Assembly (NCBI RefSeq): GCF_001996165.1 | Contig: NZ_MUFP01000003.1 | Span: forward strand, 39,404 to 71,818 | Direction: 5' to 3' | DNA length: 32,415 nt | DNA from: Salinivibrio proteolyticus | GTDB taxonomy: Bacteria > Pseudomonadota > Gammaproteobacteria > Enterobacterales > Vibrionaceae | Part shown: piece by piece, positions 2,291-28,630 of the stretch | Layout: the number at the start of each line of letters is the position of its first letter | Position numbering within the stretch: position 1 is the stretch's first letter | The notes under the pieces: model-generated | What the model was told of the DNA's origin: nothing | Database searches by the model: none | What the model saw: only the letters and a program-made list of their open reading frames with translations | Made by a program: the position numbers and the translations under genes

Positions 2291-3154
2291 ATGACAAAAG
2301 AGATGTACGCACTGGCCCCCATCGCACAGGATAACTTAGACAGTTACCTGCAGGCGGTGAATAGCCACCCCATGCTCACTGCCGAAGAGGAGCATGCGTT
2401 GGCCGAGCGTCTCCATTACCATGGTGATCTTGAGGCAGCGAAATCGCTGATCCTCTCACACTTGCGTTTTGTTGTTCATATCGCCCGTGGATACACCGGA
2501 TACGGCTTACCCATGGCAGATTTAGTGCAAGAGGGTAACATCGGCTTGATGAAAGCGGTCAAACGCTTTAACCCAGAAGTCGGCGTTCGCCTTGTCTCCT
2601 TTGCGGTGCACTGGATCAAAGCCGAAATTCACGAGTACGTGCTGCGTAACTGGCGTATCGTTAAAGTGGCAACCACCAAAGCACAGCGTAAGCTGTTCTT
2701 TAACCTGCGCAAAAACAAAAAGCGCTTGGGGTGGTTTAACAACGATGAAGTGAACATGGTGGCGGAGCAACTTGGTGTTGATGCAGCAGAAGTCCGCGAG
2801 ATGGAAGCACGTCTCGCCGCGCAAGATGCGACCTTCGAAGCCCCAGCAAACGCCGATGATGAGCGTGATGGCGCCGCCATGGCTCCAGTCTACTATTTAG
2901 AAGACAAGAGCTCTGACGTTGCGGCCTCGCTAGAGGCGGAAAACTGGGAATCGCACGCGAACCGTCGTCTTGCCCATGCACTGGCTGCATTGGATGAGCG
3001 AAGCCAACACATTGTTCGCGCACGTTGGTTGGATGATGACAAGGCCACGTTGCAAGACTTGGCGGATCATTACCAAGTGTCGGCTGAGCGGATTCGCCAG
3101 CTTGAAAAAAATGCGATGAAGAAATTGAAACACGCCATGGGTGACGCTCTATAG
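2291..3154 (+). CDS. rpoH: RNA polymerase sigma-32 factor RpoH
   Basis: Heat-shock sigma factor directing transcription of chaperone and protease genes. The 287-residue length matches the family. Region 2 is present ([14 protein letters not shown] near 78-90 and the [16 protein letters not shown] segment). The diagnostic RpoH box QRKLFFNLR is at residues 132-140, and it separates this protein from RpoD and RpoS. The C-terminal region 4.2 helix-turn-helix is [21 protein letters not shown]. The ATG at 2291 gives the expected N-terminus ([10 protein letters not shown]). It follows ftsX as in other enteric and Vibrio genomes and is closed by a strong terminator. Control by mRNA structure and by DnaK/FtsH is known for the family but cannot be read here. 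Confidence 0.98.
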
Positions 3155-3172
3155 CGCTATCCATGCGAATAA

Positions 3173-3196
3173 ACCGGCCTGCGGGCCGGTTTTTTT
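3173..3196 (+). terminator. Rho-independent terminator after rpoH
   Basis: Stem ACCGGCC (3173-3179), loop TGCG, stem GGCCGGT (3184-3190), followed by a T run. A strong GC stem 18 bp after the rpoH stop. Confidence 0.93.
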
Positions 3197-3205
3197 ATAT
3201 CTGTT

Positions 3206-3333
3206 GATCATCAGAGTCGGAAAGTTTCACGCAACTTATTCACAGCTTATCCATGATCAGATCTATATCTAGTGGATCCTCTTCGACGATCTTCGCTTAT
3301 CAACGCAATCCACACCTTTTTCCACAGACGATC
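3206..3333. other. Intergenic GATC and DnaA-box-like cluster before glpE
   Basis: The 316-bp gap between rpoH and glpE has no gene. This 128-bp part holds six GATC sites (3206, 3255, 3260, 3275, 3288, 3330), far above the chance rate of about one per 256 bp. It has one perfect DnaA-box match to TTATNCACA (TTATTCACA, 3236-3244), a one-mismatch box TTTTCCACA (3318-3326), and weaker relatives TTATCCATG (3247-3255) and TTATCAACG (3297-3305). ATGATCA occurs at 3253-3259 on the plus strand and, as its complement, around 3205-3211. Such a mix resembles Dam- and DnaA-responsive regulatory DNA. A role in replication timing or in glpE expression is inference only. The rest of the gap (3334-3470) holds a TACAAT hexamer at 3387-3392 that could be the glpE -10 element, and an inverted repeat GCCGCT/AGCGGC at 3393-3411. 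Confidence 0.4.
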
Positions 3334-3470
3334 AATAAATAACCATAACCTAACCTGTCTAACAAGCGAGGCGGCCTAAACTCAGGTACAATGCCGCTTA
3401 TAACGAGCGGCGCGATAGCATCGTGCTACATAACTTTGGGAATAACTCTGTGAGTGGAGTGGAATTAGGT

Positions 3471-3803
3471 ATGGATCAGTTTGCTCATATCTCTGTGACC
3501 GATGCGTGGGAAATGCTGCGTGATGATCAGCAAAATGCAGTATTAGTGGATATTCGCGATCCACAAACCTTTCAAGTGGCGCACTCTCAAGGTGCCTTTC
3601 ACTTAACCAACGACACCTTGGTCGCCTTTATGGATCAGGTCGACTTTGATCAACCCGTACTGGTGATGTGCTACCACGGCATTAGCAGCCAAGGGGCGGC
3701 ACAGTATTTAATTAACCAAGGGTTCGAGTCTGTCTACAGTGTCGATGGTGGCTTTGAGGCTTGGCATCGTCAGGCCCTGCCGACTGAGTCAGGACTGGAA
3801 TAG
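3471..3803 (+). CDS. glpE: Thiosulfate sulfurtransferase GlpE (single-domain rhodanese)
   Basis: Small cytoplasmic rhodanese that moves sulfane sulfur from thiosulfate to a thiol or cyanide acceptor. At 110 residues it matches the E. coli protein closely from MDQF through the VDIRDPQ and AFHLTNDTL blocks. The active-site loop is CYHGISS with the catalytic cysteine at residue 67, and the C-terminal GGFEAWHRQ segment is typical. The frame is open further upstream, including a GTG at 3450, but the ATG at 3471 reproduces the known N-terminus; its Shine-Dalgarno is weak. Fifteen bases separate it from glpG, so the two probably form an operon. Its physiological link to glycerol-3-phosphate metabolism is by neighbourhood only. 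Confidence 0.93.
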
Positions 3804-24463: not shown

Positions 24464-25252
24464 ATGGCGTTATGTGATTGGCAATCTTACGGACAAGGCC
24501 CCGATCTGGTTCTCATTCATGGTTGGGGAATGAACAGTGCTGTTTGGTCGCTTATCTTGCCGTATCTCACTGCAAACTACCGAGTTCATTGTGTTGACTT
24601 GCCCGGATTTGGGTTGAGCCCCGCACAGCCGGGGCTTGATTTAGAACAACTGGCACAAGTGTTGCTTAAAGAATCACCAGCGCAAGCAACTTGGTTGGGC
24701 TGGTCACTGGGCGGATTGGTGGCCACGCAAGCGGCCCTGCTCGCGCCCCATCGTTTGACGGGGCTCGTGACGGTCGCAAGCTCACCCAAGTTTGTCGCGG
24801 AACCGGGATGGCGAGGCATTAAACCCGCGGTGCTGAATGCATTTGCCTCACAGCTTGAGCAGGATTTTTCTTTGACCGTGGAGCGATTTATGGCGCTGCA
24901 GGCCATGGGGTCGCCCACTGCGAAGAAAGACATTAAAGCGCTCAAGCAGGCAGTGTTTTCACGACCTGCACCGGATCCTCAGGCTCTGGCCGATGGTTTG
25001 CAAATACTGGCTTCGGCGGATTTACGTCAAGCATGCCAGTCAATTCGCTTACCTTGGCTGCGGTTGTACGGTCGCCTCGACGGGTTGGTACCTGTCGCCG
25101 TGGCGGGACAGATGGACGCTTGGGTACCTCATTCACCGAGTGAGGTCTTTGCACACAGTGCCCATGCCCCTTTTGTCACTGAGCCTGACGGTGTGGTAGA
25201 CAGGCTCACCGCCTTTCTGGCAACCAATTGCCGCCCTGACTGCGCGCGCTGA
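24464..25252 (+). CDS. bioH: Pimeloyl-[ACP] methyl ester carboxylesterase BioH
   Basis: Alpha/beta hydrolase that removes the methyl group from pimeloyl-ACP methyl ester, ending the disguised fatty-acid phase of biotin synthesis. 262 residues. The catalytic triad is S81 (GWSLGG), D206 (YGRLDGLVP) and H234 (HSAHAPF). The oxyanion segment is LIHGWGMNSAVW, and the whole sequence is collinear with E. coli BioH. ATG 24464 fits; its Shine-Dalgarno is weak. The rest of the biotin genes are not in the window, as is usual for bioH. Confidence 0.95.
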   Translation: MALCDWQSYGQGPDLVLIHGWGMNSAVWSLILPYLTANYRVHCVDLPGFGLSPAQPGLDLEQLAQVLLKESPAQATWLGWSLGGLVATQAALLAPHRLTGLVTVASSPKFVAEPGWRGIKPAVLNAFASQLEQDFSLTVERFMALQAMGSPTAKKDIKALKQAVFSRPAPDPQALADGLQILASADLRQACQSIRLPWLRLYGRLDGLVPVAVAGQMDAWVPHSPSEVFAHSAHAPFVTEPDGVVDRLTAFLATNCRPDCAR

Positions 25253-25273: not shown

Positions 25274-25300
25274 TAAATCTTGTCATTCCTCTGCCGATAA
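25274..25300 (+). promoter_or_regulatory. Near-consensus sigma-28 (FliA) promoter
   Basis: TAAA (25274-25277), exactly 15 bp, then GCCGATAA (25293-25300). The -10 octamer is identical to the flagellar sigma-28 consensus and TAAATCTT matches TAAAGTTT at six of eight positions. It lies 40 bp before the start of the 115-residue ORF. The expected transcription start is near 25307, giving a leader of about 34 nucleotides. No competing sigma-70 pair with proper spacing was seen. Confidence 0.75.
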
Positions 25301-25340
25301 GTTAACTATGTCACTTGCTCTGGTATGAGGAGAGACCATA

Positions 25341-25688
25341 ATGAACGTAGGCAACGTTGGGCAGTCTCAGGCCTATCATCCACAGTCGATGAAGCCAAAA
25401 TCGCCGCCGCAAACGCAACCAAATGCGGACAAAGAGGTCAAAGATACAAAGCCCGCTGAGACAGCGGCCACCCCAGCGGTGAAAGACGTCAAGGATGCGA
25501 AAGCAGCCAAAAACGCTGAAGGCGTTGACAAGTCTAAAGAGAAATCATCGGTCGAATCCTTTACTTATGGCGCGTTGGGCATGGACCATCCGGAAAAAGT
25601 GAAGGAAAACGATGATACCGCCTATAACGCAGGACAATTTTTGTCTGCGCTGGGAACAATAGGCACAATACTCGCGGTTGTCGTCTAA
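25341..25688 (+). CDS. Uncharacterised small protein, probable FliA-dependent gene
   Basis: 115 residues, not recognised. Residues 1-60 are low-complexity, rich in lysine, proline, alanine, glutamate and aspartate (repeated KD-V/T-K motifs such as VKDVKDAKAAKN), and probably unfolded. Residues 70-95 form a short charged stretch, and the C-terminus (GQFLSALGTIGTILAVVV, 98-115) is hydrophobic enough for one membrane helix. No signal peptide. A good ribosome-binding site (GAGGAGAG) precedes ATG 25341, and a sigma-28 promoter lies upstream. Presumably cotranscribed with the next gene 64 bp on. It may be a flagellum- or motility-linked accessory protein; this is inference. Confidence 0.75.
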   Translation: MNVGNVGQSQAYHPQSMKPKSPPQTQPNADKEVKDTKPAETAATPAVKDVKDAKAAKNAEGVDKSKEKSSVESFTYGALGMDHPEKVKENDDTAYNAGQFLSALGTIGTILAVVV

Positions 25689-25752
25689 ACTATAAGGAGA
25701 CGAGGCCGGACTGACAACGAGGCCTTCAGCTGATGTTGGGAGGTAGCATCAG

Positions 25753-26226
25753 ATGAATATATCGCCAGCAAGCGTCAGTATCCCAACTGTCGCGCCATCG
25801 GTGAACCCGCCAACTGAGCAAGTTGCGCGGGAAAATCGCGTGCGCGAAAAAATTGTTCCGACCAAACAGCCACCCGCGTTGGATCATGAAAAACCCGCGA
25901 CGGAGCAAGACAAGCAACTGCGTAATCCCTCTTGGGATCCGTCACAGCATCCCAATTATTCTTTCGACTATACCCCCGAGTCCTTTCAAGACGCAGACTA
26001 CAACGGCGCCAATGTTGCTAACCGCATTGATGCTATCACTCGTAGCGAGCCCGGAGACGAGGCGCGACCAGAAAACGGCTATCCGTTGGGGCTAAAAATG
26101 CCCGAAGAGGTGTTGGAGAAAATTGAGCAACTGCAAAGATTTGAACGCACTCGTGCGGTGGTCGCGATGCGCTACCAGCAAGCGACCGTGGCGAATATGC
26201 CTTCAGAAGTGTTGATTGTGATTTAA
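25753..26226 (+). CDS. Uncharacterised conserved small protein, second gene of the FliA-driven pair
   Basis: 157 residues. Proteins like this are found beside bioH in vibrios, sometimes with misleading names such as Lon protease; no protease motif is visible. Residues 1-60 are proline-, threonine- and charge-rich and probably disordered (MNISPASVSIPTVAPSVNPPTE). The middle has aromatic-acidic repeats (SWDPSQHPNYSFDYTPESF), and the C-terminal third is helical (MPEEVLEKIEQLQRFERTRAVVAMRYQ) with a hydrophobic end, PSEVLIVI. GGGAGG (25739-25744) precedes the ATG at 8-bp spacing. No promoter of its own was found, and it ends before a strong terminator, so it closes the two-gene unit. Confidence 0.75.
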   Translation: MNISPASVSIPTVAPSVNPPTEQVARENRVREKIVPTKQPPALDHEKPATEQDKQLRNPSWDPSQHPNYSFDYTPESFQDADYNGANVANRIDAITRSEPGDEARPENGYPLGLKMPEEVLEKIEQLQRFERTRAVVAMRYQQATVANMPSEVLIVI

Positions 26227-26253
26227 GCTCTGTCCATTGAGCCGATTGACGTT

Positions 26254-26285
26254 AAAGCCCCGCCAAGACGAGCGGGGCTTTTTTG
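26254..26285 (+). terminator. Rho-independent terminator after the small-ORF pair
   Basis: AAAGCCCCGC (26254-26263), loop CAAGACGA, GCGGGGCTTT (26272-26281) and more T. It may also serve the convergent tex transcript, though with only a short T run on that side. Confidence 0.93.
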
Positions 26286-26290
26286 CGTCG

Positions 26291-28606
26291 TTAAGAGCGC
26301 TTGGCGCGGGCAAAGGCATCAGCCATGCTTCCGCCGATAGGTGCGGCGGGTTGACGAGGCGCCTTGCGTGATGGGCGATACTGTCCCGCTTTGTGGTTAT
26401 CGCCTTGTCCTTGGGACGCACTGTCGCCTGAAGGGGTATCGTCCAAACGCATGGATAAGCCAATCCGTTTGCGCGGAACATCCACCTCCATCACTTTGAC
26501 CTTAACCACATCTCCGGCTTTGACCACCTCGCGAGGGTCACTGACAAAGCGATTCGATAGGGCGGAGATGTGCACCAAACCGTCTTGGTGAACCCCAACA
26601 TCGACAAAGGCGCCAAAGTGCGTCACGTTGGTCACTACACCTTCCAGTTGCATACCGGGCTTCAGATCGCTGACTTGATTGATGCCTTCCGCAAAGGTGG
26701 CGGTCTTAAACTCAGGACGCGGATCGCGGCCGGGTTTTGCCAGCTCGTTAAGCACGTCGGTGACCGTGATTGCCCCAAAGCTGTCATCCGCAAACTCTTT
26801 CGCGTTCAGGCCTTGCAAGAAACGGCTGTTACCGACCAGCGCCTCGACGGCTTTGCCGGTTTTCTCCGCAATGCGTTTGACCAAAGAATAGGTTTCTGGG
26901 TGAACGCCAGAGCGATCCAGCGGGTTGGCACCATCCATTACCCGTAAAAAGCCCGCACATTGTTCGAATGCTTTAGGGCCAAGACGCGGCACTTTCAGCA
27001 GGGTTTTACGATCGCCAAAGCGGCCATTTTCATCACGAAAAGCGACAATATTTTGCGCCATGGTTTGGCTTAAGCCAGCGACACGAGTCAGGAGTGGCGC
27101 CGATGCACTGTTCAGATCCACCCCGACCGCGTTCACACAGTCTTCGACCACAGCATCGAGTTTTTTGGCAAGCTGACTTTGAGAGACATCGTGTTGATAT
27201 TGGCCTACGCCAATTGATTTCGGGTCAATTTTAACCAGTTCGGCCAGTGGATCTTGCAAGCGGCGGGCGATAGAAACGGCACCACGCAGCGAGACATCAA
27301 GGTCTGGAAACTCATTGGCGGCTAATTCCGATGCCGAATACACAGAGGCACCTGCCTCACTGACCATGACGGTCTGAATGGCTAAACCAGCCTGACTTAG
27401 CATGGTTTTGGCAAACGCTTCAGTCTCGCGGGAGGCGGTGCCGTTGCCGATCGCGATGAGGTTGACCTGATGACGTTTAATTAAATTGAGCACCGTCTTG
27501 CTCGCGCCATCTACGTCGTGACGTGGGGCGGTAGGATAAATGGTGGCAGTATCGAGCAATTTCCCCGTACCGTCCACTACGGCCACTTTACAGCCAGTAC
27601 GCAAACCCGGATCGATGCCGAGCGTACAGCGTGGTCCCGCGGGAGCGGCCATCAGAACGTCTTTTAGGTTGGCGGCAAAGACATCAATGGCGTCGCTTTC
27701 GGCCCGCTCTTTCAAACTGGCCATAAGCTCAGTCTCAAGGTGCATGAGTATTTTGACTCGCCACGCGAACGCGATAACTTGCTTACGCCAACGATCGGCG
27801 GGCGCACTGCCCAAGGATAAGCCGTAATGCTCGGCAATCATGGTTTCGCAGATACTGCCTTTACTGTCTGCTTCTTGGTCTGGGTCAGCGACTAAGGCCA
27901 GTTGTAAGACGCCTTCGTTACGGCCACGGAGCATGGCTAAGGCACGGTGAGAAGGCACTTTAGCGATCGGCTCTTGATGATCGAAGTAGTCTTTAAATTT
28001 CGCCCCAGCCTCTTCTTGGCCTGTGACAACACTTGCGCGTAACACCGCGTATTGGTTGAGATATTGACGAATTTTATCGAGCAAGGCGGCATCTTCAGCG
28101 AGGCGCTCCATCATGATGGCGCGGGCGCCGTCGAGTGCTGCCTTGGTGTCGGCGATGCTCAGCTCGGGATTGAGATAGGATTGGGCGAGTGTGTCAGGGT
28201 CTTGCGACGCGTCTTGCCATAAGGCCTCGGCCAAGGGTTCTAGGCCTGCTTCAATGGCAATCTGTCCTTTGGTACGACGCTTGGGTTTATAGGGCAGATA
28301 GAGATCTTCCAAGCGGTTCTTGCTGTCTGCCGCCAAAATGTCGCGACGCAAGCTATCGGTCAGTTTACCTTGCTCATCAATCGATTTTAGGATGGTATCA
28401 CGCCGAGCCTCCATTTCGCGCAAGTACACTAAGCGTGTTTCCAGCGTGCGCAGTTGGCTGTCATCCAGCCCTTGGGTGGCTTCTTTTCGATAGCGAGCAA
28501 TAAAGGGGACGGTATTTCCGTCATCGAGCAGCGCAACGGCGGTTGCGACCTGGTTGGGTGAGACATTGAGCTCTTTAGCCAGGGTTTGAGTCAGTTGACT
28601 GTGCAT
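26291..28606 (-). CDS. tex: Tex/YhgF family RNA-binding transcription accessory protein
   Basis: Cytoplasmic nucleic-acid-binding protein related to eukaryotic Spt6. 771 residues from ATG at 28606 (MHSQLTQTL), preceded by AAAGGAT. Domains in order: N-terminal helical region with [20 protein letters not shown], a YqgF-like RNase H fold ([22 protein letters not shown], near 330-350), helix-hairpin-helix segments ([19 protein letters not shown] and [22 protein letters not shown]), and a C-terminal S1 domain ([30 protein letters not shown]) ending in a basic, glutamine-rich tail. It lies downstream of greB, another transcription factor. Confidence 0.96.
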
Positions 28607-28630
28607 GCATATCCTTTTGTAAACAAGCAC

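Follow-up and report, generated by a model that had tools for sequence, protein, structure and literature searches.

The window analysed here is a stretch of 32,415 nucleotides of Salinivibrio proteolyticus (contig NZ_MUFP01000003.1, positions 39,404 to 71,818), in which two small open reading frames, ORF1 and ORF2, lie between bioH and tex behind a promoter-like element of the flagellar sigma factor sigma-28 (FliA). The element was found by motif search, is kept in relatives and reads TAAA-N15-GCCGATAA at 25274-25300 on the + strand (TAAATCTTGTCATTCCTCTGCCGATAA in full), with the -35 TAAA at 25274-25277, a spacer of 15 and the -10 GCCGATAA at 25293-25300. The initial annotation had described this element, with exact spacing, 40 base pairs (bp) ahead of a 115-residue frame, and both the spacing and the 40 bp from the -10 to the start of ORF1 are confirmed. 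With spacers of 13-17, the TAAA/GCCGATAA pattern has a single occurrence in the window and is absent from all 100 dinucleotide shuffles.

Genes and features between bioH and tex

ORF1 (25341-25688, + strand, 115 residues; ORF calling and alignments) has a hydrophilic N-terminal part and a conserved C-terminal segment. It is separated by 64 bp, from stop to start, from ORF2 (25753-26226, + strand, 157 residues), which on profile comparison appears to be a protease-less relative of the SprA-related proteins. Folding places an intrinsic terminator hairpin at 26254-26284 (+ strand), where it would close the ORF1-ORF2 unit; the sequence 26248-26292 has a fold energy of -26 kcal/mol and none of 200 shuffles is equally stable, and the hairpin is not among the calls of an automated terminator scan of the window. 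The earlier description of the 157-residue frame as part of one unit with a terminator at its end is thus upheld. Because of the 64-bp gap, the one promoter-like element and the one terminator, co-transcription of ORF1 and ORF2 is likely in Salinivibrio.

The element is followed by a short leader with the Shine-Dalgarno sequence GGAGAG (25301-25340, + strand), which, judged by eye in an alignment of 28 upstream regions, shows stronger conservation than the DNA preceding the promoter. RNA folding of this leader gave no notable fold. The conservation of the ORF1 leader, TTGCTCTGG..GGAGAGACCATAATGA in the window (25301-25346) and in relatives, seems to go beyond the needs of a Shine-Dalgarno sequence, and the leader is perhaps a site of post-transcriptional control. 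The neighbours are bioH upstream (24464-25252, + strand; named from the first reading and synteny, and the same neighbour in relatives) and the convergent tex downstream (26291-28630, - strand; seen as an ORF and in relatives), which bears out the housekeeping neighbourhood noted before. The closest named relatives at the locus are Salinivibrio species, with an ORF2 identity of 65-79%.

Conservation of the element and co-occurrence with FliA

The sigma-28 consensus used here was tested on flgM, pomA and motX from the same genome. In this genome the pattern TNAA-N15-GCCGATA has 26 sites against nine for the reversed pattern; one site (L196) is unscored and most of the others lie inside long ORFs. 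Six sites lie outside long ORFs with a gene start within 160 bp, and the genes behind them are flgM (L175), pomA, motX, a chemoreceptor-type gene with HAMP and Cache domains, a DnaJ-domain gene and ORF1, the identities of the first three being above the NCBIfam cut-offs. Two further sites outside long ORFs (L179 and L184) have no gene start within 160 bp. Because of the genes behind the six sites, the promoter-placed motif in this genome mostly marks late flagellar genes. The DnaJ-domain gene (L191, 1501-2753) has TCAA-N15-GCCGATA 48 bp upstream and is possibly a further late flagellar gene, or the match is due to chance.

It is conservation, rather than the single exact match, that carries the case for a promoter. 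The locus set comprises 30 loci from named genomes, 27 of them with ORF1 (frame-broken in one, L023), and TAAA-N15-GCCGATA stands at the same position in 24 of the 27, so that a comparison of bioH-tex intervals across Vibrionaceae, which the initial annotation had proposed as a check, supports the element. The deviating loci have TCAA-N15-GCCGATA (L005 and L009) or the -10 GTCGATAG (L022; TAAA-N15-GTCGATA). ORF1 is absent from L025, L033 and L034. In the first of these (Photobacterium ganghwense, 2760-3005), GCCGATAA and part of the conserved leader still precede ORF2. Similarly, in Veronia nyctiphanis (L023, 2607-2846) ORF1 is frame-broken relative to V. pacifica (L024) and the promoter-like element and ORF2 are retained. 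In the draft genome of Salinivibrio socompensis (L009, about 3001-3490) it is the ORF2 frame that seems broken.

A wider survey scored the 150 bp upstream of 59 distinct ORF1 proteins, after removal of duplicate proteins, of the motif loci from the own genome, of L034 and of the filler L083; ORF1s missed by the ORF1 motif of the script (including L023, L163, L164 and L168) are also outside this set. The strict motif, T[ACT]AA-N14-16-G[CT]CGATA, precedes 39 of the 59 genes and a relaxed form 53. In the background the strict motif occurs at 45 places in 692,934 bases (both strands, 59 loci), by which about 0.6 would be expected by area in the 8,850 upstream bases. The element is kept with ORF1 behind bioH in Salinivibrio, Enterovibrio, Grimontia, Veronia and Photobacterium. 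In a genus labelled g12, probably Vibrio, neither bioH nor tex occurs in the DNA examined at any of the 16 fetched ORF1 loci; in the 14 scored, ORF1 lies behind an rlmA-like methyltransferase gene (named by reading the sequence), immediately or one gene later, and nine of the 14 have a CAAGTTTT stretch correctly spaced ahead of G[CT]CGATA (deviants L067, L072, L074, L075 and L084). Among 247 genomes drawn from the order, 28 are ORF1-positive, 14 of them in three other families, and five of the nine loci fetched from these families have the strict motif (L162, L165, L167, L168 and L170). In L162, ORF1 is divergent from a chemoreceptor-type gene. Likewise, of 19 loci with ORF2 after bioH and no ORF1, 14 show a relaxed motif within 260 bp upstream of ORF2. 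The two genes, earlier called a pair, are adjacent in the window, but the pairing is not obligate, as the g12 ORF1 genes away from bioH and the ORF2-only loci attest.

The second line of evidence is that the genes co-occur with FliA across 296 Vibrionaceae genomes sampled evenly from a larger group. What was scored is FliA and not flagella, by TIGR02479 at E <= 1e-40, with 274 genomes above the curated cut-off; FliA is missing in 20. ORF1 occurs in 236 of the 276 genomes with FliA and ORF2 in 272, and neither occurs in any of the 20 without it (Fisher p, phylogeny ignored, 7e-16 for ORF1 and 2e-27 for ORF2). The ORF2 absence in G245, G258, G271 and G285 is read from non-appearance among the matches. 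The FliA-positive genomes without ORF2 are G001, G002 and G192 (1.1-2.6 Mb) and G151 (74% complete). The FliA-less genomes keep bioH (18 of 20) and tex (19 of 20), both small genes being gone. In none of the 19 FliA-less tex loci is bioH found in the 1.3-1.6 kb examined beyond tex, and the interval is therefore rearranged. Loss of ORF2 by deletion along with bioH was considered; the 18 genomes that keep bioH weaken such a linked loss, which for ORF2 nevertheless keeps a small probability, as the interval is rearranged, and for ORF1 the linkage itself is lacking in all 16 fetched g12 loci.

Several of these results count against a FliA promoter at the locus. The exact octamer with a spacer of 14-16 has four sites genome-wide against three for the reversed pattern and is not enriched on its own. 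Neither the strict nor the relaxed motif is found at six of the 59 ORF1 genes (L072, L074, L075, L076, L166 and L169), four of the nine ORF1 loci from other families fail the motif patterns (near forms only in L163 and L164, none in L166 and L169), and five of the 19 stand-alone ORF2 loci have no relaxed motif (L086, L087, L092, L102 and L103). ORF1 is also missing from 40 FliA-bearing genomes. A tex tree groups the FliA-less genomes into two clades of eight and ten (both 100/100), outside which are G011, of unsure placement in the tree, and G193, with no tex match; these two also lack bioH. FliA loss is clustered in two clades and two single genomes, and there are therefore perhaps two to four independent losses.

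From the unenriched exact pattern and the clustered losses it could be argued that the motif is a chance one, and that ordinary constitutive genes were lost together with FliA in a few lineages. This is most improbable, however, given strict motifs at 39 genes where about 0.6 would be expected, a motif that accompanies its gene to new loci, and FliA-less genomes that keep bioH and tex and not the two small genes. The element is very probably a working FliA promoter, and ORF1 and ORF2 would accordingly be late flagellar genes. Membership of the late flagellar regulon, as the initial annotation had proposed, is well supported on sequence grounds by the conservation of the element and by the absence of both genes from all 20 FliA-less genomes.

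ORF2 and the SprA-related family

Searches of Pfam, NCBIfam and PHROGs with ORF1 and ORF2 gave nothing usable, and to that extent the statement that neither protein has a recognisable domain stands; for ORF2, however, profile comparison finds an N-terminus homologous to SprA-related proteins. Residues 1-70 of ORF2 (25753-25962, + strand) match the SprA-like N-terminus by hhalign with a probability of 97.7 and E 1.3e-12 in a single comparison, and the two groups share the place after bioH. Within the order the ORF2 profile has matches in 55 of 345 genomes, of which 25 are Vibrionaceae, and the 25 non-Vibrionaceae loci that were read hold 20 long forms and five short forms. Three long forms tested match PF12118 (SprA-related) at 2e-42 to 7e-44. 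The 20 long-form loci have bioH upstream in 18 and tex in nine (in the DNA examined), two of them (L145 and L152) having neither. The short forms (L106, L131, L146, L149 and L151) stand after bioH and have no HExxH motif. This motif is likewise absent from ORF2 and present in all 17 long relatives used for the profile comparison. Of 340 genomes drawn from the order, 154 have PF12118; none of these belongs to the family of the window, which had at least 20 genomes in the draw.

At the other end, ORF2 residues 129-149 (26137-26199, + strand) show a weak match, by profile comparison, to the extreme C-terminus of SprA-related proteins. The last 50 residues score 17.3 against the SprA-like C-terminus, the best of 60 column shuffles reaching 11.0; the match, initially spotted by eye, has E 0.0026 and a probability of only 11. 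It is suggestive of an SprA-like short C-terminal tail retained in ORF2. An alternative MAFFT alignment places the C-terminus of ORF2 on the HExxH region; the tail-to-tail match seems better placed, and neither is strong. Like the SprA-related proteins of PF12118, ORF2 follows bioH, is homologous over the first 60-70 residues, is nearly free of cysteine and possibly has the same tail, but unlike them it is without the central HExxH domain, and the families listed at E <= 1 for 25 ORF2 members do not include PF12118. ORF2 is treated as a relative of the SprA family and not as one of its members. Hence, of the two proteins described as uncharacterised, ORF1 remains a separate family, while ORF2 is better regarded as a protease-less SprA relative than as wholly unknown.

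The missing HExxH core, in Vibrionaceae as in the short forms (L106/L131, L146, L149 and L151), would also suit a decaying and functionless SprA remnant that happens to have a genuine sigma-28 link. Against this are the presence of ORF2 in 272 of the 276 FliA-bearing Vibrionaceae genomes, its 25 invariant columns across 25 aligned members and its own motif in 14 of the 19 loci without ORF1, and decay is considered quite improbable.

Some observations concern the SprA-like loci themselves. In 18 loci (L132-L138, L140-L144, L146, L149, L150 and L152-L154) the gene ahead of the SprA-like one encodes a protein of about 77-112 residues whose C-terminus is rod/hook-like, and the small upstream neighbours of three long forms have weak matches, below the cut-off, to PF06429 (flagellar rod/hook C-terminus) at E 0.006-0.02. 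Derivation of ORF1 from this small rod-like gene was tried and rejected, as the score of 12.0 is exceeded by column shuffles of up to 19.1. In L137 the SprA-like frame is broken soon after HExxH and is intact in close relatives. Genome G349 has a short HExxH-less form after bioH (L149) and a PF12118 gene elsewhere in the genome, an arrangement that suggests duplication or relocation.

ORF1 and possible flagellar export

The conserved C-terminal segment of ORF1, residues 73-115 (25557-25685, + strand), has the pattern FTYGALGMDHP..DD..Y.AG..LSA.GTIG, ends in a hydrophobic stretch and holds 14 of the 15 invariant columns of 21 sequences. The last 19 residues are the most hydrophobic stretch in all 21 (mean hydropathy 1.4-1.9). 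Residues 1-60 have a mean hydropathy below zero in all 46 ORF1 and ORF2 members, a property that is not specific to export substrates. Flagellar axial proteins are generally cysteine-poor, and cysteine counts are two in 3284 residues for ORF1 (28 proteins), one in 3265 for ORF2 (21 proteins) and none in 5304 for the SprA-like proteins (17). A search of solved structures gave no match for ORF1 and, for ORF2, matches at E 0.07 and 0.25 that were treated as chance. A relationship of ORF1 to FlgM, prompted by a short motif seen by eye, gained no support, PF04316 (FlgM) not being among the families for 21 ORF1 members at E <= 1; nor is it among those listed for 25 ORF2 members at the same threshold. 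FlgM, the anti-sigma-28 factor, does resemble ORF1 and ORF2 in its small size and in the promoter-like motif ahead of its gene in this genome. Because of its hydrophilic, nearly cysteine-free body and its hydrophobic C-terminal helix, ORF1 could be either a substrate of late export or a membrane protein anchored by its tail.

The overall explanation preferred, held with fair confidence, is that both are late flagellar genes and that ORF2 is a protease-less SprA relative, probably exported by the flagellum. Export of FlgM releases sigma-28 (PMC7911332), and ORF1 and ORF2 would then be transcribed from the FliA promoter. ORF2 would be an SprA-related protein in its Vibrionaceae form, with the N-terminal segment and perhaps the tail preserved but no HExxH core. 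In Campylobacter jejuni the SprA-related protein CJM1_0395 is found in wild-type supernatants and not in those of an flgG mutant in two strains (PMC5223770). Because this protein depends on the flagellum for its release into the medium, the N-terminus common to ORF2 and the SprA-related family is probably, at a middling level of confidence, a flagellar type III export signal, by which ORF2 would leave the cell and work at the filament or beyond it. The Feds (flagellar co-expressed determinants) of C. jejuni offer a likeness to ORF1 and ORF2, being sigma-28-dependent non-flagellin proteins described as secreted in that study (PMC5223770); the likeness is one of description and not of sequence, and for ORF1 and ORF2 both sigma-28 dependence and secretion are predictions. 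The flagellinolysins, or proteolytic flagellins (PMC5595980), set a precedent, in that a protein exported through the flagellum may carry a metallopeptidase domain as an optional insert in its centre, but they are flagellins, and the searches made showed no relation of the SprA or ORF2 ends to flagellin.

A further set of points tells against export or the wider reading. The export result comes from one distant species, and its CJM1_0395 is linked to ORF2 through being named SprA-related. In the same study (PMC5223770) the CJM1_0395 deletion has wild-type growth and motility and weaker adherence to cultured cells; because the mutant moved like the wild type, a role in motility is not implied. 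Low cysteine is equally compatible with disordered proteins and occurs in neighbours in the window too, such as OmpR (one in 238) and GreB (two in 198), the eight other window proteins counted having 1-12 each with OmpR the lowest. The AlphaFold models of the two small proteins are poor (mean pLDDT 53.9 and 57.0). The SprA-like loci L132-L134 show, by eye, no evident element beyond TTCGATAA in L132, and a scan of seven such loci gave one distant weak site only. With no clear element at these loci, the sigma-28 link may be confined to the Vibrionaceae form.

A possible, somewhat doubtful alternative keeps both genes in the late flagellar regulon and both products inside the cell, with ORF1 as a tail-anchored inner-membrane protein and ORF2 as a soluble cytoplasmic one, tuning the motor, the chemoreceptor array or the pole. 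It draws on the hydrophobic last 19 residues in all 21 ORF1 sequences, on the sole long helix of the low-confidence ORF1 model, which lies at this C-terminal end, and on the chemoreceptor-type gene divergent from ORF1 in one relative; the near absence of cysteine speaks against it, as does the homology of the ORF2 N-terminus to a family with a member that is secreted in a flagellum-dependent manner in C. jejuni.

Under the preferred explanation, with export of ORF2, a broader scheme may be put forward tentatively. The SprA-type proteins could be a modular flagellar export scaffold in which the conserved ends serve export and the protease core is an optional cargo; Vibrionaceae would have the scaffold without the protease (ORF2) and a new small late protein (ORF1), together a flagellar secretome under sigma-28 control that is encoded away from the flagellar clusters. 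Among the papers listed in literature searches on the Vibrio FliA regulon, Feds and SprA, with partial coverage of subscription papers, none was recognised as naming ORF1 or ORF2. The name bioH does not occur in the main text of a V. fischeri motility screen (PMC3948606), and SprA does not occur in the term-searchable text of a Campylobacter motor paper (PMC11870540).

If the regulon assignment is right, ORF1 and ORF2 would be late flagellar genes located apart from the flagellar clusters and unnamed in the family libraries used. The link with SprA makes them relevant to the question of which non-structural proteins leave bacteria via the flagellum.
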